From Nymphaea colorata (Eukaryota > Streptophyta > Magnoliopsida > Nymphaeales > Nymphaeaceae), in the NCBI RefSeq assembly GCF_008831285.2, contig NC_045148.1, positions 930,001 through 994,000 of the forward strand: a stretch of 64,000 bases of DNA, read 5' to 3'. Positions 448 to 49,400 of the stretch are shown here, piece by piece (the first letter of the stretch is position 1; each line of letters begins with the position of its first letter). The notes under the pieces are model-generated. The model was not told where the DNA came from, made no database searches, and worked only from the letters and a program-made list of their open reading frames with translations. Position numbers and translations under genes: made by a program.

Positions 448-1552
448 TATATATATATATATACTCACACACACACACACACAATTCTCTCTGGTCTCTC
501 TACACGTCCCAACTTTTTTACTATTTCACTTGTGTTATTTTTGGTTTTCTTTTGTTTTTTTTTTATTTTCACAACCAATTGTTGAAGCTTAAAACTAACA
601 TACTTATGTTTCTTTTGGAAGTCTCACAATTAAATATTTAAAAATAAACATTTACATGGTGTATTACTTAATGTAGCAAACATATTTTATCGGGATTGTC
701 TAGAGAGTTAGGATGATAAAAAACACAAGGTCATTTAAAAAATAAACAAAAATAAATAATATAAAGTTAAGCTACATAGATATAACATAGTGTTTTTAAT
801 AATTCATTTCTTTTTCATTCATTTCTATCCAAAACAACTTTTATATTAATCAGTTTCTTTCCCTCTCCTGTTTTTCCCCTTTCTCTTTCATTTTTTCTTT
901 CTTTTTCTTTCCACCAATTCCTTTCCCTCCATCAAAACAAAACTTTCAGGACTTCAACCACTAATCTCTAGCGGGCAATATTTTTTTTGGTTTCTCTGTT
1001 CTGAACAGCAAGATGATGCTGTTTCGTTTTCTTGTTTTGTCTCCTTTCTGTTTTGATGCTGCCCATCCCCCCAACATCCGTCTGCCCCGCGGTCTCGCAG
1101 ATCCTCGTTGGAAATAAGAAGATATAAAAAGCATGTCAGGTTTGTTCTGTTAATCATGCTTATTTATTTTGTCCAGAAAATGCATAAAGTATGTTTTTCT
1201 AAACAATAATATAAACTATGTTTTTCTAAACAATAATATAAACTTATAAAACTATTCTTTTAATAAATAAAATAAATTGTCTTTTAAAGTTTCTTTACCT
1301 TGTGTAGCCCTTCCATATAAATGGACCGTTTTCTAATATAAAGGACAAAAAATAAGTATACCATATTATCTGGATGCATAAATATATGAAATTTCTCTCA
1401 CATTCTTTTATCAATTTATAAATTATAAGTTTACTAGTATTAAGCTCTAAAAAACTTGATTTGATTATTTTATATTAATAGTAACTTCATTTATTCTGAC
1501 TCGCATACTACCGTTAGTTTTGTTAAAATAAGAGGAGAGAATTGATTGCATA
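448..1552. other. AT-rich spacer, no gene seen
   Basis: AT-rich sequence with poly-T and poly-A tracts. A short tandem duplication (period 27, two copies of 'atgtttttctaaacaataat') lies at 1191-1244. The 67-codon minus-strand frame at 954-1157 has no recognisable domain. I see no exon structure. Confidence 0.5.
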
Positions 1553-2364
1553 TTAGGAAGAGAAACACTGTTTGCAGTGGAATGGTGGTGAGCTATATGA
1601 ATCAACCTCGATCGACCCGCTATTGTCAAGCATTTTCCCTCTCCATCCGAGCAATCTACTATTGATTTTGTCCACCATTGGTTGCCAATCTGACCATGTG
1701 AGCTTTTTTACTATCAATGGGAGGCCCAAGTACGTTGCCGGCAGTGATTGCTCAAGACAGTTGAAGATGGTTGATGCCGCACATTGCAAGTGTAAGTCTG
1801 CATTAAAGAGGACTAAATTGCACTAGCTTTCATTAATAGTGAGCCTCGATAGTATGGAAAGTGCCTTCAGAATCAACAAGTGATCATGGCCCATTTGGTG
1901 GATGGTAGCATGTTAAGAAATAATATATGCTGCACATTATGGTAAACCACACGCGGAACCAATACAAGGAACGTGAAGAGGACCGGACTCTGAGGCTCTG
2001 TGAAACAGCACCGTAAATGCTTTTGAGACAAAAGTGGAAAAGCGGTGGGGAGAGAGAGAGCAGCTTGCCTCAAGCCACGGTCCATCCACGCGTAAAGAAT
2101 CACCTTGATGACCATTACGAGGAAAAACAACCCTTGCTTGACAGACCAAATCCTCAATCCAATGGATCTAACAAGGCGGAAAGCGATGAGAGATACCACC
2201 TCAAATAAGAAGGGTGACGGAACGGAGTTAAACTTCTTATTGAGATCTTGCTTGATCATAAAATAAGGACAACTATTATTAGAAAGTGTGTGGACCGTTT
2301 CAGAGGGAATCATATAATCATCCTCCGAATAGGGTGATCTCTTATTACTACTAAATAAAAGCAT
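1553..2364 (-). mobile_element. Degenerate LINE reverse transcriptase fragment
   Basis: Read on the minus strand, conserved blocks of a plant LINE reverse transcriptase appear in the expected order but in different frames. KQDLNKKFNSV (near 2240) matches the K-x-D-x-x-K-A-F-D-x-V block. RGLRQ follows, and VPRVVYHNVQHILF (near 1930) corresponds to the catalytic YADD block with the DD pair lost. Then comes PATYLGLPLIVKKLTW with DWQPMVDKINSRLLGWRGK (1620-1740), the conserved post-catalytic stretch. Frameshifts, stops and the missing aspartates make it inactive. It ends about 150 bases past the stop codon of the V-ATPase gene, on the same strand, so it may lie in or beside that gene's 3' UTR. Confidence 0.8.
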
Positions 2365-2514
2365 AGTAGTGGCAGGACTAAGGAGCTGAGAATACTAATT
2401 TCACAGGGTTTCGAACAAAACTTGAAAAGGAAAAAAAAATCAGGATTTAAAGATACAAACTCATCAAAAGATCCAACTCTCTCAAGTGACATGCACGCCA
2501 GCGGAAAACAAAAA

Positions 2515-11542
<9,028 letters not shown>

Positions 11543-18866: not shown

Positions 18867-19676
18867 ATAACGCTTTTCCTGGTAATTATACTTTACGTAT
18901 ATCTACACAATTTACATGATTACTTTCAATTATTTGATGCAAATCACACTTCTTCTCCCTTTAAATCATAAAAAATTGCATGATTTTTTTCTCCCATCCA
19001 CAAAAAAACTGAATCTTTGTCTAAAGACATGCATTGAGAAACGGCAGATGTATAGAGCCTTTCAACGAGATAGTGTTTTTTCAAATCTCTGAAAATGGAA
19101 TTTGTTCCAAATGTATATGCCATGGTTGGTTACTTCGGCAAGGTGCAATAACTACATACAGATAAAACAAAAATGGGATAAAGATCAGCTCTCAGAATCG
19201 TTTTGACAGATAAAGGCACTTGACAATTAAGGCCAGCTTCTTAGCTTCCCCGGCACCCCACAATCGAGCTAGCTTCTCCACCTTGATTATCATCCACAGG
19301 TATCAGAAACTGAACCAATTTTTTCTTGCTGTCCTTCCTAATAGATGGCAAGACATGACTGAGCAACTCCATTCGGAACTGTTGTGCTAATTTCAAACCA
19401 AGTTAGAAAGTGGTATTTACTAGATGTTCTGCTTTACAGGAAAGGCTACCTAGGTCGTCATAACGGTAGATCAACAGAGACAGACATATAGCAAGAAAAG
19501 GTTACAGCTAGCCTTGAGGATGCAAGCCTGAACAACTAGCCAATCTAGTAGCTCTTAGTTATGAAGTTCTGAGCCAGAAAATAAATTTGTCCGGCCGGAA
19601 ATTCTTTTCCGGCTAGCTATGTGGTCTATGAGAATTCTCAGACCAGGGCAGCCGGGTCTGGCCATTGCCATGTGGC

Positions 19677-22304
19677 TAGGGCTGTTCAACGAGTCGAGCT
19701 ACTCGAACTCGACTCGTTTAACTCGACTCGTATGTTTAAACGAGCTGCTTATTTAGTTAAACGAGTCGAGCTCGAGTTGACGAGCCGACTCGTTTAATTA
19801 ATCGAGTCGAGTTCGAGTTCATGTGAGGGAACTCGTTAAACTCGAATCGGCTCGATTATTTAGTAAACCAGTTTTTTTAAAACCGGTTCAAAATCAAGAT
19901 GAGAAAGCGCCAAGGCGGGAAGAATTTTAGGGTTTCTCATATCATTTCCTTTTTGCGTTTTCGCTCTCTCCTCTCCGAGTCCGACTCTCCCTCTCTCCGT
20001 CTCTCGCCTGACGCCTCTCTCCCCCTCGCGCAACTCTCCCGACGATTACCACGTCGTCTCCTCATCAGTCATCCCTTCACGTAAGTCTCCTTCTCTCTCT
20101 ATCCAAACCGACACCTAAACCCTAATTTTTCTTCTTATATTCCCCCCTCCCTCTGGGCCGTTTGTTTGATGGTTCTCTCGCTATCTCTGGTTTTATTTCC
20201 GTTCAGGAGAAAAATCGAGGTGCTCCGCAAGAATGGATGCACTCTGGTAGGTGAGTTCGCTTTTTCTGCTACTGGAGTTCCCTTTTATTTTTGAACCTCA
20301 TACTTGTGATCACGTGGGGATCATCTGGATTTCTTGTTTGAAAAGTTTAAAGGTCGGTAATGACGTTGAACGCGGTTGAATTTCTTGGTCAGTAACACTA
20401 GTAGGGTTATTTTTTGTTTGATTAGTGCACTTAGATTATTTGCACGTGCAAGTGTGTTGCTCTCTTTGCTGCCTAAGTTGATAAACAAAATTCTAGAACG
20501 TGGAAATCTGATTTCCTCGTTTGTGTTGGAAAGTGGGAGAAGCTGGAAGATGACATTCGACCGTAATGCTACTCCAAATTAACCAGTTGGTCCGTTAAAT
20601 CCCACTCCCCAAAATGCTGATTAGTTTTCCAGATTGGTTCACTCTTCATGTTTTATCTTGAATGTTTCCAGATCCTTCATGTTTGTTTTTCTGAAGAATG
20701 ATTTAATCTTATGCTGATAGTCTTTTAGGCGAGGAAAAAAGGGGAAAATCCTTATCGGCATCTGACAGGTAGGAATTGATTTAAAGAACTGGGTTTCTCT
20801 TAAAGCTGCATTGTGAGTTGTTGAACTGCTTAAAATTCATGAGAAAGATCATAAGCACACTTAAAGTTTGGTTCATCAGTTAGTAAGGAACATTCTTATG
20901 TATTAGAAGCATCACCAAGGTGTTTTCTGCAAGCATTTTTTTGTTCTTGTCCTGCTGCTGTTGACATTTATCTATCTTTTTTTTTGTTCTTGTCCTGCTG
21001 CTGTTGACATTTATCTGTCACCAAGGTGTTTTCTTGATTTTTTGGTGAGGTGTACTCACTCTGATGAGAATAGCAACAATCTTCTCGACAAGTTGCAAGA
21101 TGCATTTGGGAGAGGCCAGAACCCTTCCTCTGTTCTTCCCATGATTTCAGCTGAGCTTGCAACACTAACAATAGCTTGAAAAAGATTCAACTAAGGATTG
21201 GAACAGTAAGAGAAACCCAGTTCTCTGCTAGTTGAGTAGTTTCTGCTCATGGGTAAGTTTTTGCATTTCTAAGCATCTTTTCTTAATTTTTTTTTTGTTC
21301 TAAATGCAGATCTATTGGACTTTTTGCAGGTTCATTTTTACATTTCTTGCTATTGGGATCGTAGTATGCTTCTGCACACTCTGTGGGCATGTGGTAGCCA
21401 ACAACATCAACGTCCTCCTTCTTACTTTCGTATCCTTTATTGCTGATATAGAAAAGTTGGCAAACTTCTGTGCTTTTTCCTCTGTTCCCGCTTAGAGCAG
21501 ATCAAGCATCATAGGGAGTATCTGCATATAACATCTATTACAGTTGGCATGTGTTTCTCAAAGGCACTTATTTGGAACCATCTCGTGGTTTCACTTGATT
21601 GCTGCTCGTAATAGCTACCAAGGAGATTCCCCAAGTGTATTTCCCTTCTAGATGCTATTCATTATAAAACTTCTGTGGCAATCTGATTACAGGGACGCAT
21701 TTGAAAGGAGCCATATGTGCACAGGTGGGATTTGAAACTGTATTGGTCTTCGGGTTTGTTTCTACAACTATTTGAACAAAATATGTCAATGACAAATTGT
21801 TGATTTGTTGCCTTTTAGGACTCTAACCTGTATAGCATGGATAATGATAAAAAGTTCACTTCTAATGTTGTTTTTAGTTTACATTTGTGTTCAAAACTCC
21901 TAAAGATATGAGGTTATCCTCAACCTCCTTAAGTACATAGTATTCGTCTGATTATCGTTTATTCCCAAAGTCATTTCGTCCATTCGCCGTGGCTGCCTAT
22001 CATTAAAAAGAAACTATTCGTGAAAAACTACAGAAATGAGTAATATTAATCGAGCTCACGAGTTCGAGCCTTATCGAGCTTCACGTATTCGAGCTCGAGC
22101 TCAACAAGTTAGGATGCAACTAAACGAGCTTAATTGAGCTTAATCGAGCCGAGCTCGAGCTCGACCATTGACTATCGAGTCGAGTTCGAGCCAGGATAGT
22201 CGAGTTAGAATCGAGTTCGAGTCGAGTCGAGCTCGTGTCTTATTTAATCGAGCCGAGTTCGAGCTGGCCGAGCTCGGGCTCGACTCGGCTCGTGTTCAGC
22301 CCTA
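19677..22304. mobile_element. hAT-type DNA transposon, non-autonomous, with captured gene-like sequence
   Basis: The element is flanked by a perfect 8-bp duplication CATGTGGC at 19669-19676 and 22305-22312, the size made by hAT transposases. Its termini are inverted: TAGGGCTGttcaaCGAG on the left and TAGGGCTGaacaCGAG read inward from the right. Both subterminal zones (19680-19860 and 22050-22295) are dense in CGAG/CTCG words, typical transposase-binding sequence of such elements. No transposase domain is visible. The interior has a CT-rich 5'-UTR-like block (19940-20085) with a donor-like 'cacgtaagt', an exon-like piece ending 'tag|gtgagt' near 20250, a 42-bp tandem duplication near 20941-21020 and a tetraspanin-like piece at 21330. 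It therefore looks like a Pack-type hAT that captured host gene sequence. Confidence 0.85.
21330..21495 (+). pseudogene. Tetraspanin-like fragment inside the hAT element
   Basis: After an acceptor-like 'tttttgcag' the frame reads FIFTFLAIGIVVCFCTLCGH then VVANNINVLLLTF, ending at a TAG at 21493-21495. Plant tetraspanins of the TOM2A-related group carry W-F-I-Y-(S/T)-F-x-G-x-G-(x)4-C-x-x-T-x-x-G-H-I-A-A-E-x-I-N at the start of the third membrane helix, and this fragment follows that spacing closely. What follows does not match the conserved NGCC stretch, and no other tetraspanin exon is obvious. It is read as a captured, non-functional gene piece. The assignment rests on recalled family pattern only. 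Confidence 0.45.
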
Positions 22305-22312
22305 CATGTGGC

Positions 22313-27113: not shown

Positions 27114-27367
27114 TTTATATTTGGAGATTAGACCAACCTTTTCCTACCTTTCTTGGTTTTCCTTCTCGTTCAACATCCACCTTGTTCAAAAAGAGTTAGG
27201 GTTTCAGTCTCTGTGAAGTTCTTCTTCACCAGCGGATCTTCCCACCACCCATTCTTTATTACAAGACTGTGGTGGTGTGGACATCAAAAGGGCTGTCTCT
27301 GAGAAATTTGAGGCTGCCCATCTTAGCTTTCTCAAGGTAGGAGTAGGAAGGAAGGGGTTGAGGATAC
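27114..27367 (+). promoter_or_regulatory. Probable core promoter and leader of the NAC gene
   Basis: A TATA-like 'ctttatattt' lies at 27113-27122, about 250 bases upstream of the NAC start codon. That predicts a leader of roughly 220 bases with no intron visible. 'agggtttcag' (27199-27208) and pyrimidine-rich stretches fit a plant 5' leader. Placement is by motif and distance only. Confidence 0.4.
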
Positions 27368-30300
27368 ATGGATGGTGTTACTAAGGAAGAGAAGCTTCCT
27401 CCTGGATTCAGATTCCATCCAACTGATGAGGAGCTGATCACGTACTATCTCCACCGCAAGATCTCGGATTCGTCGTTCACCGGCCGAGCGATCGCAGATG
27501 TTGATCTCAATAAGTGCGAGCCATGGGATCTTCCAGGTGAGGAAGAAATCTTTGTAGCTCTTGCGCTACGTCCTGGTGATCATGGTTTTCACAAGTCGCT
27601 GCTTCTTATTCGTAATGCTTTTCGTCATTGGTATTGTCTTCCGAGATTGAGTAATAGTTTTTTGTCTTGGCTTTTGCGTTTCTCCCTTTTACAGTTTTTT
27701 GCTAATTAAGGCAACATACTGATCATGGCATGCAACAAAAACATTCTTCTTGTCTTCTTCTTCTTCTTTACCTCACAGATTCCGCTGCTTTTCTGCACTA
27801 CATACATAATTCGTTCAATAAAACCGCAATCTTCATCATGGTTCATGAGCATAATTAAGATAATCATCGATTGCTCTTCTTCTTCTAGCGTAATTTGGAC
27901 AGGGAAATCGAGGGAATGACCAAGAATTCTTCACAGTTCTATTCTATTTGACCGAATGATCACCATGTGTGCACTCAAACGACTACCATATAGAAGTAGA
28001 ATCTTGTACTCCACGCACCAACTTGGTTGAATTGCCTCTCAACATGACCAACTTTTTTGTAGATTTGATTTCCTTCCAGAACTAGACTTGTTCCTTTACT
28101 CAAGAACCAGATTACAAATCTTCTTCTTTTCTAAGTTTCTTTCTCCCTTTCTTTGTTTAACTTTTTGCAATATACTAAATCCTTCTATGGATGCTGTGAA
28201 TTGTTACAGCAACCTAAATAAATATTCCACCACCTTTCTGGCTTGTGCTTTGTACTCCCGACAGGCATCCAGTAAGGCCGGCCTGTGATCCACCCGTTCC
28301 TTGAGCATTAGTACATGTTATCTTTTGTCAAGATCTAAACTCAAAGCCCACCCATATAACTATCTTCTGCATCTAAAACAAATCAAATTGCACCAAGTTG
28401 CACCAATTACTGTTATTAATCTTCAGCTCAATTTGGTAAGTGGCCGGGTTTACAATCACCTTAATCCTTGTAGCAAAGCGAGAGAGAGCTATGACGAGTA
28501 TCGTGTGTCGCCTCTTTTATGGGGAAAAATCTGCGGATATATATAAGCCATGCAGATAATTGGTAGTAGTCTTGCTTGCTTTGCTAACATGACGAAAATT
28601 AATATTAGTAAAATGCAGTTTGTATGACCATGCACCAAATTTTTAGCTAGGTTCATTTCTTTTGCATTGCTTTCATCAATTAATTACTATGTTATTATTC
28701 TGTGGTCAGGAAAGGCTAAAATGGGAGAGAAAGAGTGGTACTTCTTCAGTCTCCGTGATCGGAAATACCCCACCGGACTGCGGACAAACCGGGCAACGGA
28801 TGCTGGATACTGGAAGACCACCGGGAAGGACAAAGAGATCTTCAATTCCACCACCTCAGAATTGGTAGGCATGAAGAAAACCCTCGTCTTCTATAAAGGG
28901 AGAGCTCCCAAGGGAGAGAAGACCAACTGGGTGATGCATGAATACCGGGTCCAACCTAAATCCACCTTCAAATCCGGCAAGGTAAAATATATCCTAGCAC
29001 TAACTGATTAATTAATCAATTGAATATTTAGTTAAAGTATCATTGACAAGGAAAACCACCAAGTTCTTTAGACACGTGAGAACTGCCTACACCAAGAAAT
29101 GTTTGTCTACTCTGCCCTACCTTTCATACATTCAGAAGCCGCACACGCTACGAAAGACTCCTTGTGTACACTTCTATTGAGTTTGGAACTTGTTCCAAAT
29201 AGCGAGCTTTAGTGCGGCCATAGCTGGAGGAAGACAATTTGTCTTTTAAATCACATAAAACATTGTGTTCTTTTGTGTTTGTTTTTTTCTTCTTCATGAT
29301 TTCAAGAGTGTGCGAGGAAACCCATCAGTCCGTGATGAAAGGTGGTTACATGCACCCGGGTGCATCGTGCATAGCCCCGGTTAGCACGACGTGTTTCCCA
29401 ACCCATTCCCAGGTATGTGTGATGCACATGAGCCTATGCACGGTATATCGCATGCAGAGGCCTATGCATATAACCAGATCGGCCTATGCATATAACCAGC
29501 TTTGATCGGTGATACCTCAGATGACCTACACATAGCCTTTGATTATCCAAGCAAGGAAACACATCAAATTTGAACCTATTTCACATCACACCTACATCTA
29601 CCCACTACCTCCTACCTCTTGTTCTTGATCACTCTTCTTTTTATTACCAGTAAATGACATGATAAATTGAACTTATTTTTCATTGACATCATGTGATCAC
29701 TACCTCCGTCAGACGTTGCTAGCAACTTGGACGAAACATTTGGTCCTGTCAAGTTGTCATCGTGTGCTAGCAAGTCATACACATTAAAGAGATCTTATTG
29801 TCAAGAGACAAAGGAAGATGAAACGGGGTGCCTACTTGATCTCTGTTCATGTTAAACTTGGTATTAATTTTTCCTTTGCGCCAATGCACCTATCTACTTA
29901 TCTGCATTATTCACCCTTTTCTGTCCACAGACCATATACTTTGGTGTCTCATATATTCGTGGATTTCATGCTTCATTATTTTTCAGTAATATCTGCTGCT
30001 TGGTCACCTTTATAAATTTAAAGTTTGGAAATGGCTTTTGCAGGAAGAATGGGTCGTTTGCCGCATTTTTCAAAAGAGCGCTACGGGGGTCAAGAAGTTC
30101 CCCCAGAACCCGGTCCGAGCAAACCCATTCAACATTGACATGGGCCAGGCTGCGCTTTCCAGTCTCCTACATCAGGACCCTATGAGCCAAGTCAACATGG
30201 CCAGGGCCTACGCAAACAACGCCGACCTAGTGGACCTGAGCAGGGTCTTCAGGGGCTCCGTCAACATGAACTTCCTCGGCCAACCACAGATGCCATTTAC

Positions 30301-30556
30301 CAACGGTTTACAGCATCCGGGACTCAACCTCAACCTCCCCACATTGCAACCAGGAACATTGCCGGCGGCTGCGCTGGCCGGCGGCCACCACCAGCCGCTG
30401 AAGATGGATGTCCCAACTTCGGCCATGCTGTCAAACGTCGGCCTTCACGGCGACACGTGCTTTGGAGCAGAGCTCGGCTCCGCCGGCAATGCCCGGTTCC
30501 AGGCCGTGGACCCATGCCCGGATCTAGGAGGCTACTGGCCACCAGCACCATACTAA
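27368..30556 (+). CDS. NAC-domain transcription factor, 3 exons, 317 aa
   Basis: Exons 27368-27536, 28710-28981 and 30044-30556 with GT-AG introns join in frame (954 nt including stop). The NAC DNA-binding domain fills residues 10-158 with all five subdomains: A ([19 protein letters not shown], 10-28), B ([11 protein letters not shown]), C ([15 protein letters not shown], then [13 protein letters not shown]), D ([20 protein letters not shown], then TNWVMHEYR) and E ([11 protein letters not shown], 148-158). The intron positions are the usual NAC ones. The C-terminal half is rich in Asn, Leu, Pro and Gly, lacks a membrane segment and ends GGYWPPAPY, as expected of an activation region. The domain resembles the NAM/CUC and NAC058/NAC100 groups, which act in organ boundaries, senescence or growth; I cannot place it to one orthologue. 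It has GDTCFG where miR164-regulated relatives have HVSCFS. Confidence 0.93.
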
Positions 30557-43400: not shown

Positions 43401-46400
43401 CATATTTACAGAGAACACACACGATGAAATCTCGGTAGTATGCATGTGTTTGTGCTACTATCTTTTGTGGAGCTTTAGGTCAAGAAATCTGTTGATCCAC
43501 GCCATTACTGCTAAGGAAACAAACCAGACAAATAATTTCTGCCACCATCAAGTAGAGAAAATTGAACAGACTTGCTATGAGGCTTTTCAATTAAGCTCAC
43601 AAGGTTCTTAAAATTTAAAACCTCAGAAACATTAAAGTTCATTCATTAACATCACGTACATCTTAGACTAGATAAAGGAGGAGGATCACAGACATCCTTA
43701 TGAATTAAAGCACTTCAAGAATTTTATCTCCTCGGAAGCAAAAGACAATAAAGTAAGCTTTTATAAGTCAGTAAATAGGGCCAATTGCCATCAATAGCAC
43801 CATTCCCTTTATTCCATCAGAACTTTCAAGGGCTGGCTACTGCAATTCTTCGTCCTAGACGACAAAAGATTATCATTAGCTGTTAACAGGAGTAACAAGA
43901 ATCTTGGGCTTCTTAAAGGTAGTATTGAACACGAATAACCCATTACATTATTGATCCCTAGAGCATACTGCTCATGGATAATCATTCACGAAAACATAAT
44001 TTGGAGCTAAAACAAGGATGACTTTTATGTGAACAGCTGGGATTCTTAAATAACATTTTCCTTGTACCAAGGATACATCTGTGCTTGCTTGAAAATCAAG
44101 AACATTGTTCCCAGTGTGGATGATTCTATAGAATCACAAGTGCCAATGAACCACTGGTTTTATGAAGGTATAAAGATACAAATACCTTGAACTTCAAGAA
44201 ATACAACTTGCTCCCCTGCTATTAGCATAGCACTTATAGCAACAACAACAATGTCATGTAGACCTGATGCGCAAAACCTTACTTTCATCTTGAGTGTGCC
44301 CCAACACTGATGAACTACCTAGTCCGTGGATAATTTAACATTCATATCCCATATTGCTGAAAATTCAAGCTTCATGATCTGATCTGCAATTTGCAAGTCA
44401 TGAACAGTTTCTTTATTACTATAGACCCAAGGGGTAAAAATATTCTGATATCAGCATTACTATTGTGGCGTCCTCGTATAAGTCCTTTACAATATGATGT
44501 CCAATATTAATACACCTTTTCCACCAAAGACATTAACATATTCAGGTCAACTAATCTCTTTGCATTATCTATCTCTTGCAGAAGATAGTGAAATGTAATT
44601 CATAAAATTGTACTCTGCTGCAAACCTGTTGGGGGATGGCCCCATCAAGATTATTAGCAAAAGAATGGGATACAGACAAAAACGGAGGATGAGCATCCTA
44701 GCTGCTCGGTAGGGTGTTCCCAATAGGAGTTGTGATTACAAAATGAGGCTTTAGCAACAGTGCAGAAATCTCTGGCAGGATTCCCACAAGATAAGCTCAG
44801 CAACCTTTTACAGCAGAATAGGGTGGAGTTCCTAGACATGGCTTCAGTAGGGGAAGTCAGGATTCTGTGGACACAGTTCTGCCAGCTTTGTGGCCTGACC
44901 ATGAGGTAGTCCTGAGTCCTAACCTTTCTATAATTAGCCCTGACCATTCAAGAAAGTCCTGACCTTTCAAGAGAATCCTGACCTTTCCATAACTTTTCCA
45001 TAATTGCCTTTCCTTTCCGTTAATGAGACTGAAGGTCACTTAACTGATTCAGGTCAGACAAATCGTTCAAAGTGCTTACCACTATAATGGAAAGGATCAG
45101 TTGTCAATTTGTCATTGTATGCCATTAGTGCTGACCATACCAAAAATGCAAGTGTCTTTCTCTTCAATGAAACACTAATGGCATCTTGATTGGTATGGAA
45201 AAAGGCATCTTTTTGGCGTAGCAAGAATGATGTTCTCCACCAGCTGGATCCAATAGGCCTCTGGAGGGGCTAGGCAGTCACGAACTCCAAAGTCAATTAA
45301 AATACCATCAGGATTGTAGAGGCCGTAGCTGACAATAAGACGATGCTTTGCAACGAGGAAGGCCAGATGCAGGGAATATCGCTGTTCAGGGTCCCTCATG
45401 TAAGTACCCGGCTAAATTCCAGCTTTAAACCATACTACCTCTATCAAATGAGATGAGTGGAGCACCAGTCTTTCCACAACTGGTAAATGTCTGACCAGAT
45501 TGATGTCGCAAAACTGTTGGGGGGGAGGAAGACGTGCGCCATGGCTCACACGATGCGGAGCTTCTACATGCTACTAACAGTAATTGGAAGGGCAGCATGC
45601 CATACATCAGACAGCCATCCCCTTCAGAAGCTGGTGGCCTTCCATTTGATAAGTTTATGGATCATATCTTATTCCGCTCCAACATTTTTGCCAAATTTTC
45701 CACAAATCCACCTCCATACCTTGTTAGTCCAGCTACAATGCAAAAAGATGTGGGGGTTCGATTCTTCACTTACCTACAAAAGAGGCACTGGTCCGCAATA
45801 GCAATCCCAACTTTCTGGCATTTGTCAAGGGTGAAAAGCCAACCCTGCAGGCCAGCATGGGGGGGGGGGGGGGAAGGGGCTGGTTTGCCAGAGGTAGGGA
45901 TTCCACTCATTCTCAAGGCTAGATCTGATACGCTGGTAGATCTCCATGGATGTGAGGGAAGCAGCATTGGCGTCCCCCCAGTGCGAAGTATCTTTCCCTT
46001 TATTAAGCCTTGTGTTTCTTATCACAGTCCTAATCCAATGGGTAGTGACATTTCTGCAAATCAGCGACCCCATATGTGTGGTTTGGGCCATATTTTTATC
46101 AAGGGTGTGAGTCGATGACTGCAAAATCTCCACCGTCAAGGAACGTGTGCAGTAAAACCCAACCCCATGAATCAAACCAAAACTTTGCCCTGGTGTCGTC
46201 CCCAATCTGGCAGCACAATTCACGCTCACCTCTGTCCAAGCCCAAACAATAGCATGATGCTACCCTTCCACGTCCAAATATCGTCCCATTGAATGACCAG
46301 ATTGTCCTCCACCGTAGCTGGCCAGTGCTGCACAGCGCTTGTGGCGATGGGTAGAATTCAACCCTATCATCGGATCGGTGTGTGATTCCCGCATGCAAGC

Positions 46401-49400
46401 CATTGGTAGAGGTGGTGGCCCTAGGTCCATGTATGTCAACTTGGAGGACTCCCCCACCCCTGCCCCCACCAACCAAATCTGGGATCAAGAGCTTGGTTAT
46501 CACTGCCCAGAAACTCCAGTGAAATACCATCGACCTGCCTTTCCGTGCCCAGCAGCCCTTCATCTGACGCTGCCCTCTTCCTGGATTCAAGATCTAAAGG
46601 GGGATTTAAGACTCCAAATCTGTTCGCGATGGTTGGCTTGCCATTTTGGGTGATGGTTTGCCTTGCATTTTGAACTCCTCGCTTGTTCGGGCGCCAGAGG
46701 ATTTTAACTTCTGTCCAGCCAAAAGAAGATAGTGGCATGGGGGGATCCTCTTTCTCCCGTTTCAGGTCAGAACAGGCTTTGGTAGTTTTTGATAAATGTG
46801 AGGTGGCTTTGCATTTTGAACAAAGCTTCAGTCGTTCTTCACAAATCACCTCCTGGTGGAGCAGCTTGTCTCCAGTTGCAAAAACATACACAAGCGATTT
46901 GGGTAGGAATCCTAGAGGAACAAATATATGAATTCTTGCAAACTCCACACGCACCATGGTTTTGGTGAGGGCATCAGTTTCCAATAGGGACCCCCACAAA
47001 GATCGAGCAATGGCCTGGAACACCCAATAGTTCCATAGATAGAGGGGCCAACGCAGGCAATCTAATCCATAGCGGGATCTTGACAGTGTCCTCAACACTT
47101 AACGACATCCCCGGTCGGCACTAATTTGCGACTAGGGTTATTCCCCCCAACTTCCAAGGCTCCTACCCAGAGTACGATCGCCACTTCGCCAGGTCTTACT
47201 GGCTATGAGCCCGTACAAGGCAAGACCCTTGGCCCAAGAAGGAGAAGCGAGGTTGCTCACCTCCTTCCATTGACGCTTCAGATTATTCATGATGAAGGAG
47301 AAATCTATGCTTTGTTGTGCATTTCCACCCACAAAACAGCAGATCGCGCACCAACAAAAAGGTTTTTTCATGTGCTCCAAGTCCTTCTCGGGTATGAAGA
47401 TCCTGGGGCAAACTTCATCACACTCAACCTCCAACGACTCGCAGGGGTCATCCTCTTAAATCAACTCCTGGACTAAGCGCTCAGCTCACGTTAGGGACGA
47501 AGTTTTCCTTATACTCCTCCCCTCCTGCGGGAGACCATCAGGCCCCTTTTGCACTTCCACAGTCGGAGCGCCATTCATGGCATCCTCAACGCTTGCATTA
47601 TCCAGGCCTCCCATATGATCATCAGAGGGTGCGTGTAATGCCCTCTCCGAAGGACCCATGGTCGCTGGAGGGCTAGCAGCCAGTCCCATGGAAGCTCTCA
47701 GAACCCCGATGCCGGGAAACACTAGCCCATGTTCTCAGGAGCGAGAAACGCTCTTTTGATTTGGAGAGATTTAATTTCAATTCATAAATTGTATTAAGCA
47801 TAACTCCTTGAGTAACTCAAGAAAGTAGCTGGAGAAGGAACTCGCAATTATCCTAAATTTGTGGAGGAATCCAGAATGCGTGAAGTGCAAGAACTGCACG
47901 TGAGAAACTCTACGCCAATTCTTTAGTCCTTCGACTCCATTTGGAATAACAAAGTTTAGATCTATGGGAGTTCTTGTAAAAATAAAAAATAAAAATAAAA
48001 AACTCTGGGGCTCTTAATTTCGAACCCTTTTTGCCTCGCTCCAAACAATACCAGCTTTTACTTCCAAGAGGGAGGAAAAGCCAAAAAAGGCTGAAAGCAA
48101 GTTACCTGGTGGTGATATGTAGTTGCTGATTTTAGAAACTCCCCATAAAGATGGACTGCTTTCTCGGTATGGGGCTTCAATGCAAGCCTAGCTTTGTCAA
48201 CATGAGGTTTTGCCACGGTAGCAACCTGATCAACATAGGGCTTGGCAAACTTCTTTGCTTCCTGTTATGGCATATGACAAAATCAATTAACTGGACATTT
48301 TTGCATTTCAGTCAAGGACAATTTTCCAGTCATACCTTCAAGTAAGGATCTGCCATTTCTTTTGTTTTGACAATATGAGGCGTAATCACAGTCTTTGACT
48401 GTTCATAAACCTCAACTGTTTTGGTGGTAACAGTTTGTACATGTGGCTTAACTGTCGTACATAATGTCACCCATTTTTCTTGCAGAACAGGAACCCATTT
48501 CTGCACAGGACATGCAAAAACAATCGACCAAAGGAAACAATTATAAGCATGTCATCTAATTAAAAAATAATTTGTAAGACATACTGATATCCATTTGGTT
48601 ACATTGATATTAGGTTCACCAAATGATCTTGGCACGATGCTATCATAATGAAACCATGCATAATCACCACAATGTATTTGTACAGGACCTCTACCCCTAT
48701 AGCAGACTATGAAAACATGAACTAAAATCAATTTTATTATTAGCTAAGTGATTACAAGACCCCATTTCATGAATTAATAGACAGTTAAATGTTTTTTGGT
48801 CTTTATATGACATCTTAAGGTGCCCCATGACAGCGATAACTGTCTCACACATGATCAACATAGTCCTCTTCAAGTTATTAGGAGAAAGGAAAGACTAAAA
48901 GAATAAACAGAACAATTAGCTTTACAATACTAATACACATGACAGAAGAAGGTCCAACAGACAATGGACATTAAAAAGATTAAGAACAGTCAAAAGTAAG
49001 AACGTTCAACCCCCATTACAGATCTTATTGCATAAATCATCAAAAAAATGGTAAAGCTAGATTGACTTGAAACACAGCAGGTATGTAGAAGTTACTTACA
49101 GAGTTAATTTCTTCAATATAAGGCTTACTCCAGTCCTGAACCTTTGCAGTGGCTTCCAGTGCCTAAAAAACATTCATAAAGCAAAAACCTACATGTGACT
49201 GGAAAACAACCAAGATTTAACAGCTGAATTTGGTTCAGCTGTAAGATCGTCAATCCACAGAGACACGCAACTATTACATAAATTTTCATCTATAGCACAA
49301 TTAACTAACAAAATGAGTACCCTTTGAGTAGCAATATCCCAGGCAGGCTTTCCATGAGCATTCCAATGCTTTGCTGCAACAGACTGCACTCCACAAATAT

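Follow-up and report, generated by a model that had tools for sequence, protein, structure and literature searches.

The element and its captured pieces

A complete hAT transposon of 2628 bp lies at positions 19677-22304 of a 64,000-nucleotide stretch of the Nymphaea colorata genome (contig NC_045148.1, positions 930,001 to 994,000; C11:930001-994000 in the searches below), the whole of which is referred to here as the window. It begins with the terminal inverted repeat (TIR) TAGGGCTG, ends with the TIR CAGCCCTA, and is bounded on either side by the same perfect 8-bp target-site duplication (TSD). We take TAGGGCTG to be a hAT-type TIR. The CGAG and CTCG words characteristic of the subterminal zones occur 20 times in the first 200 bp and 30 times in the last 270 bp, with 10 in the middle 2158 bp and 180 in the remaining 61,372 bp of the window. 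The features are as follows, where "el" coordinates count from 19677, percentages give the match to the donor, and C numbers denote contigs:

19669-19676, no strand: left target-site duplication, CATGTGGC
19677-19876, + strand: hAT 5' end, TIR TAGGGCTG and CGAG/CTCG-rich subterminal zone, common to other copies
19877-20021, + strand: the hAT's own CT-rich leader, el 201-345, non-captured; also in related elements without the BRCT piece
20022-20667, + strand: BRCT-domain gene piece, el 346-991; donor C1 5.0076-5.0082 Mb, 95%
20664-20717, + strand: CNOT3 intron piece, 54 bp, el 988-1041; donor C1 19.7476 Mb, 91%
20711-20760, + strand: C10 locus piece, 50 bp, el 1035-1084; donor C10 11.6741 Mb, 96%
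20758-20787, + strand: C10 locus piece, 30 bp, el 1082-1111; ~0.08 kb further on in the donor, with a 3-bp overlap, GCA
20780-20982, + strand: DENN/WD40 gene intron piece, el 1104-1306; donor C3 17.7845 Mb, 93%
20936-21021, + strand: 43-bp tandem duplication in the DENN-gene intron piece, single in copy L009
21021-21176, + strand: DENN gene exon piece (containing NNLLDKLQDAFGRGQNPSSVLP), el 1345-1500; donor C3 17.7860 Mb, 96%
21175-21224, - strand: two short inverted DENN-gene intron copies, 35 and 18 bp, el 1499-1548
21237-21250, + strand: first 14 bases (13 match) of a third C10 piece, el 1561-1574, cut by a deletion
21247-21250, no strand: deletion junction TCAT, a 4-bp microhomology; 4223 bp of copy L012 missing
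21247-21950, + strand: tetraspanin-like gene piece, el 1571-2274; donor C6 5.5245-5.5252 Mb, 94%
21951-22304, + strand: hAT 3' end, CGAG-rich subterminal zone and TIR CAGCCCTA
22305-22312, no strand: right target-site duplication, CATGTGGC

An earlier reading of the letters alone (the sequence-only reading) had described the duplication, the inverted termini, the CGAG/CTCG-rich zones and the length, all of which are borne out here, with relatives carrying TSDs at other sites. Among TSDs composed of three or more different letters, this is the sole exact combination of 8-bp TSD and 8-bp TIR within the window. Lifting that requirement admits 1071 such structures from simple repeats, and with it in place 60 Markov-shuffled windows contained 17 (0.28 per window). 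A TSD with a TIR is therefore weak proof in itself, and the proof of the element lies in its relatives with similar ends at other sites. The joined flanks, searched within the window, matched nothing but themselves.

The element was also said to lack a transposase, and this holds: Pfam recognised no hAT domain in five translations of its interior (a single ETRAMP match, E 0.054, fell below the cut-off), and DNA comparison found the transposase part of longer relatives to be absent from the 2628 bp. The features from which host-gene capture had been proposed are present in the interior: splice sites of donor type, the LLDKLQDAFGRGQNPSSVLP frame and the helix motif. Pfam and PDB searches with short interior peptides gave no useful match, and the donors came to light only by DNA comparison with the 407.8-Mb host genome, the one genome on which the whole analysis rests. 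Donor loci were found for 1879 of the 2628 bp, at five host loci, so that the interior is not only transposon sequence and parental genes do exist. At least four unrelated plant genes contributed pieces to the cargo, as did a fifth locus; four of the five donor loci are genes with more exons beyond the captured part. Because the pieces include introns, capture was from DNA.

The BRCT piece comprises the end of exon 1, intron 1, exon 2 and the start of intron 2 (exons read by eye) of a gene whose BRCT domain was recognised at E 4.3e-5. What had been taken for a CT-rich block resembling a 5' untranslated region, with a donor splice site, is thus of two origins: the splice site is host-derived, from the exon 1/intron 1 boundary of the BRCT gene, and the block is leader sequence belonging to the hAT itself, since it aligns at 74-85% in three related elements (L026, L020 and L037), all of which are without the BRCT piece. 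The CNOT3 donor gene matches NOT2_3_5_C (4.9e-32) and structures of CCR4-NOT subunit 3 (1.9e-35). The C10 donor locus adjoins a PPR reading frame (PPR_2, 1.9e-30), and the 14-base C10 piece was placed by register with long copies, in which 67 bp align. The break between the 50- and 30-bp C10 pieces is a later deletion, as another copy, L027, keeps 156 bp uninterrupted.

The previously unrecognised frame LLDKLQDAFGRGQNPSSVLP comes from the DENN-domain gene at C3 ~17.785 Mb, in which DENN (6.2e-5) lies at the cut-off and dDENN (1.3e-4) below it, with a WD40-like exon downstream (E 0.048, below cut-off); presumably this is an SCD1-like gene. The short inverted DENN-gene intron copies explain an 18-bp inverted repeat with 20785-20802. 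The C6 piece contains an intron, a second-helix exon from 21330, another intron and the first bases of the next exon (read by eye). Exons of its donor gene were spliced and judged by eye, suggesting four helices, and the spliced product aligns over residues 10-111 in profile order with Pfam PF00335 (E 0.0076, 16.4 bits against a curated cut-off of 32.1). Since this match is weak, "tetraspanin-like" is the right wording; the first 89 residues of the product found no match in PDB. The motif noticed earlier as a tetraspanin third helix does lead to a tetraspanin-like gene, and by exon order, judged by eye, it is the second helix.

The intervals 20207-20246, 20730-20768 and ~21071-21178 were also considered as exons of one captured gene with a 51-residue product, and this was ruled out: the first is from the BRCT gene, the second from the C10 locus and the third from the DENN gene. 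That the cargo is a working chimeric gene, transcribed and perhaps translated under selection, is very improbable. Some splice sites are preserved. Five donor genes have a known orientation, and the main pieces of all of them (BRCT, CNOT3, DENN, tetraspanin-like and an LRR-receptor gene present in longer copies) lie in the transposase sense; five of five in that sense has a chance of 1 in 32, but the cases are too few to judge. There is, however, no long reading frame, the DENN exon frame hits a stop at its junction, and copies differ by deletions. No protein function is proposed for the cargo, whose frames are interrupted and for which there is no evidence of a translated product.

Copies of the family and a transposase-bearing parent

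A DNA search with 19877-22040 as query, in which 40 of 79 candidates were scored, yielded 48 matches, and copy counts are accordingly lower bounds. With the 816-bp 3' region as query, all 24 candidates were scored, and the 24 matches comprised 10 element copies, 1 host locus (that on C6) and 13 short matches to the hAT end. A perfect 8-bp TSD was present at nine of the ten loci with both ends read, and each was different: CATGTGGC in the window, ACCCTAGC at L015, ACAACAGG at L013, CTCACAAT at L014, AACAGAAT at L012, ATGCCTGC at L010, CCAATGAT at L011, TATCTCAC at L020 and TCTATGAT at L037. The tenth, L009, occupies the same site as L011 and has partly lost one TSD. L026, with a degenerate 5' end and no TSD found, is not among the ten.

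The 2.63-kb form occupies at least two sites, each with its own target duplication. The second copy, L015 (C6, 22.13 Mb), has the same deletion and differs from the window element at 4 positions in 2628 (3 substitutions and 1 indel). Because it lies at another site within its own TSD, the short form has transposed with its cargo, and the recent movement that had been proposed from the perfect duplication is upheld by this near-identical copy.

Four long copies, L009 (6837 bp), L010 (6812 bp), L011 (6501 bp) and L012 (6866 bp, minus strand, used as the reference, "ref"), have ends like those of the window element, apart from one altered base in the 3' TIR of L010. In these copies the window interior is split at el 1571-1574 by ~4.2 kb. 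The middle part of L012 encodes hAT-like_RNase-H (PF14372, 2.1e-30) and Dimer_Tnp_hAT (PF05699, 6.8e-27), that of L009 encodes PF05699 (Dimer_Tnp_hAT, 6.9e-19), and L010 and L011 match the transposase stretch at the DNA level; zf-BED matches in the long copies were below the cut-off. The long copies hold all five pieces, the transposase core, and pieces of an LRR-receptor gene at C10 15.268 Mb (LRR_1, 7.5e-15, on exon pieces joined together), which we assume to be ERECTA-like.

The long copies have C10 sequence that continues beyond the left edge of the TCAT junction (ref 1572-1637), and their C6 sequence (ref 5659-6506) is already under way before its right edge. Donor sequence is thus continuous at both edges, which makes the 2.63-kb form the derived state; insertion of a transposase into a short element is excluded, as this could not have restored donor sequence on both sides. 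As judged from these alignments, the window copy captured no genes itself and derives from a hAT of ~6.85 kb that already held the five pieces, so that the capture proposed by the sequence-only reading stands, with a donor locus for each main piece, but is to be assigned to the longer hAT. A 4.2-kb deletion between two TCAT repeats in the long element produced the 2.63-kb form and removed the transposase; measured against the four long copies, the missing length is 4222-4229 bp. L013 and L014 are other deletions of the same long element. We therefore regard it as highly likely that the window element is a non-autonomous hAT (a Pack-hAT) with a patchwork cargo from five host loci, derived by deletion from a transposase-bearing hAT.

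Another account would be that the interior is the hAT's own non-coding sequence around a transposase gene, and that the element is a plain derivative of the Ds type. The long copies do show a deletion derivative, and the cargo does flank the transposase. Nevertheless, the interior has matches at five other loci, of which four are genes that continue into further exons, and L034-L036, whose transposase cores are 95.7-97.1% identical, have no match to the cargo. This account, already refuted by the host donors, is extremely improbable. A reading of the interior as the hAT's own leader, with the tetraspanin assignment in doubt, is likewise ruled out by the host donors.

The transposase frame is broken in all four long copies, and any present mobility is putative. 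The transposase of a related hAT would be expected to bind the CGAG-rich ends and move the derivative, by analogy with Ac acting on Ds.

The copies also bear on the order of captures. L026 (C9) combines a longer CNOT3 piece (103 bp) with DENN pieces and with 0.8 kb from the C10 locus. It has neither the BRCT piece nor the first C10 piece, and both transposase and tetraspanin-like piece are absent from it; part of its remainder is 90% like a C2 locus. A longer CNOT3 piece in the absence of BRCT sequence makes it probable that the BRCT piece arrived afterwards and truncated the CNOT3 piece. Between donor and copy, substitution distances are 0.024-0.039 for BRCT, 0.026-0.035 for the DENN intron and exon pieces and 0.032-0.062 for the C6 gene, with 0-0.063 for the C10 pieces and 0.10-0.12 for CNOT3, both of which are short stretches. 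Capture is far older than the last move, given that the short copies differ by only 3 substitutions and 1 indel.

Several other arrangements were observed among the copies. L009, L010 and L011 lie within ~106 kb on C16 (1.10-1.21 Mb), and the flanking sequence common to L009 and L011 suggests that part of this region is segmentally duplicated. L027 (C8:22158001-22167500, 3573-7880) contains a nested, partly inverted doubling of the captured region. L037 (C8:4594501-4600500, 530-4165; TSD TCTATGAT) is another Pack-hAT, in which ~2 kb comes from an LRR-receptor gene and is 90-96% identical to the donor, L038.

Assembly of the patchwork

The explanation we favour, and consider reasonably probable, is that a double-strand break arose in or at the element and that repair synthesis with template switching copied pieces from other loci. 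Consistent with this, two patches (35 and 18 bp) are inverted, the pieces come from five places spread over four contigs, and the C10 donor reappears after an interruption by DENN pieces; the donors themselves remain in place at their own loci. Exact overlaps at eight measured junctions were 0 (with one extra base), 0, 4, 2, 3, 1, 2 and 1, a sum of 13 where 5.76 is expected (P 0.019); adding two later deletion junctions (3 and 4 bp) brings the total for ten junctions to 20 (P 0.00055).

Several points weigh against this explanation. The microhomology signal is modest, two of the eight measured junctions having no overlap, and the lower P value needs the two later deletion junctions. A ninth junction, in the diverged L026 (overlap -25), was excluded from the sum, and at least four others lie outside the measured set: hAT to BRCT, DENN intron to exon, the 5' side of the transposase core, and C6 gene to hAT end. 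The smallest C10 patches result from later deletion (156 bp in L027), and the CNOT3 piece is 103 bp in L026; because these copies keep longer forms, the patches were larger at capture, and patch size is a weaker argument for template switching when the smallest pieces are trimmed remnants. Finally, the BRCT donor has, 687 bp upstream of its captured part, a related hAT-like element of 466 bp with similar ends and a perfect TSD, ACTGTCAT (L025, C1:5003001-5012500, at 3411-3876).

With a hAT so close by, the BRCT block at least could have been acquired as Catoni and co-workers propose in their neighbouring-insertion model, in which two neighbouring hAT copies move jointly with the DNA between them and internal deletions follow; this has been described for Pack-TYPE elements, including hATs, in the available text of PMC8903248. 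Blocks of 0.65 and 1.5 kb would fit such a process, and internal deletions are frequent in this family. On the other hand, donors on four contigs (C1 twice, C3, C6 and C10), inverted patches as short as 18-35 bp and the resumption of one donor after another would require many insertions and deletions, and no match to hAT ends was found in the examined stretches of the other donors. As an account of the whole cargo the model is unlikely though not negligible, and template switching is preferred.

It is also possible, and is suggested here tentatively, that in this genome hAT ends serve as a standing vehicle that builds mosaics, with host patches and the transposase core alike being cargo from repeated template-switching repair and pieces being exchanged between elements. 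The core at ref 2502-4963 is 95.7-97.9% identical to L033-L036; the three of these with ends seen, L034-L036, have 5' ends 77-84% alike and 3' ends 91-93% alike, with unlike sequence between. Moreover, the LRR-receptor gene pieces are common to the long copies and the separate Pack-hAT L037. The core in L033 (C13:14880901-14888000, 2632-5107) is 97.9% identical to ref 2502-4971, has a 691-codon open frame, and starts at ref 2502, as it does in L034-L036. No TAGGGNTG ends were found near the L033 core within the 7.1 kb examined, and the frame just before it appears to us to be copia-like.

Known systems and the surroundings of the element

The class of element is already known, Pack-hATs and gene fragments in hATs having been described; what is unusual here is how complete a record a single genome preserves. 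In the available text of PMC8903248, maize Pack-hATs resemble the window element in their hAT ends, 8-bp TSD, host coding DNA and absence of a transposase, and maize Pack-TYPE elements likewise often carry more than one locus. What differs here is that the main patches are traced to donors, and that partly filled relatives and a transposase-bearing parent are present. Hatvine-6 of grapevine (PMC2528002), whose copies have TIRs and transposase in common, are otherwise variable and match host exons and introns, is very similar to the long copies in these respects; the available part of that paper does not describe patch-level mosaics or deletion derivatives.

Ds2 and Ds-l4 of maize, to go by the available part of PMC3260210, are also non-autonomous hATs with filler DNA, and Ds2, like the window element, derives from an autonomous element by deletion. 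Intron-containing gene fragments occur in a few of these maize elements (2 Ds2 and 9 Ds-l4). They have Ac/Ds ends with AAACGG repeats, whereas the window element has CGAG, and each case there names one gene, whereas the window element holds several. Among animal Pack-TIRs, 208 of 370 are hATs according to the accessible text of PMC8277862, in which gap filling and template switching with microhomology (median 2 bp) were proposed; those elements are mostly single-copy, and a multicopy frog case holds one gene piece, in contrast to the multi-piece element here. How cut-and-paste transposons acquire host genes was called unknown in the part of PMC3260210 available, and capture models have been proposed since (PMC8903248, PMC8277862, each as available in part). 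Literature searches on template switching and captured fragments in hATs returned nothing specific to plant hATs, and a search by terminal sequence returned only unrelated papers.

With the small element, its transposase-bearing and partly filled relatives and the five donors all in one genome, the course of events can be followed and most breakpoints located. The case also shows a two-step route to a Pack-hAT without a transposase, with the cargo first gathered in a transposase-bearing element and the transposase lost afterwards.

Elsewhere in the window, reading frames on the minus strand at 45500-47100 presumably belong to a plant sequence resembling long interspersed nuclear elements, and 27362-30556 on the + strand, ~5 kb from the element, is what we take to be a NAC transcription-factor gene.

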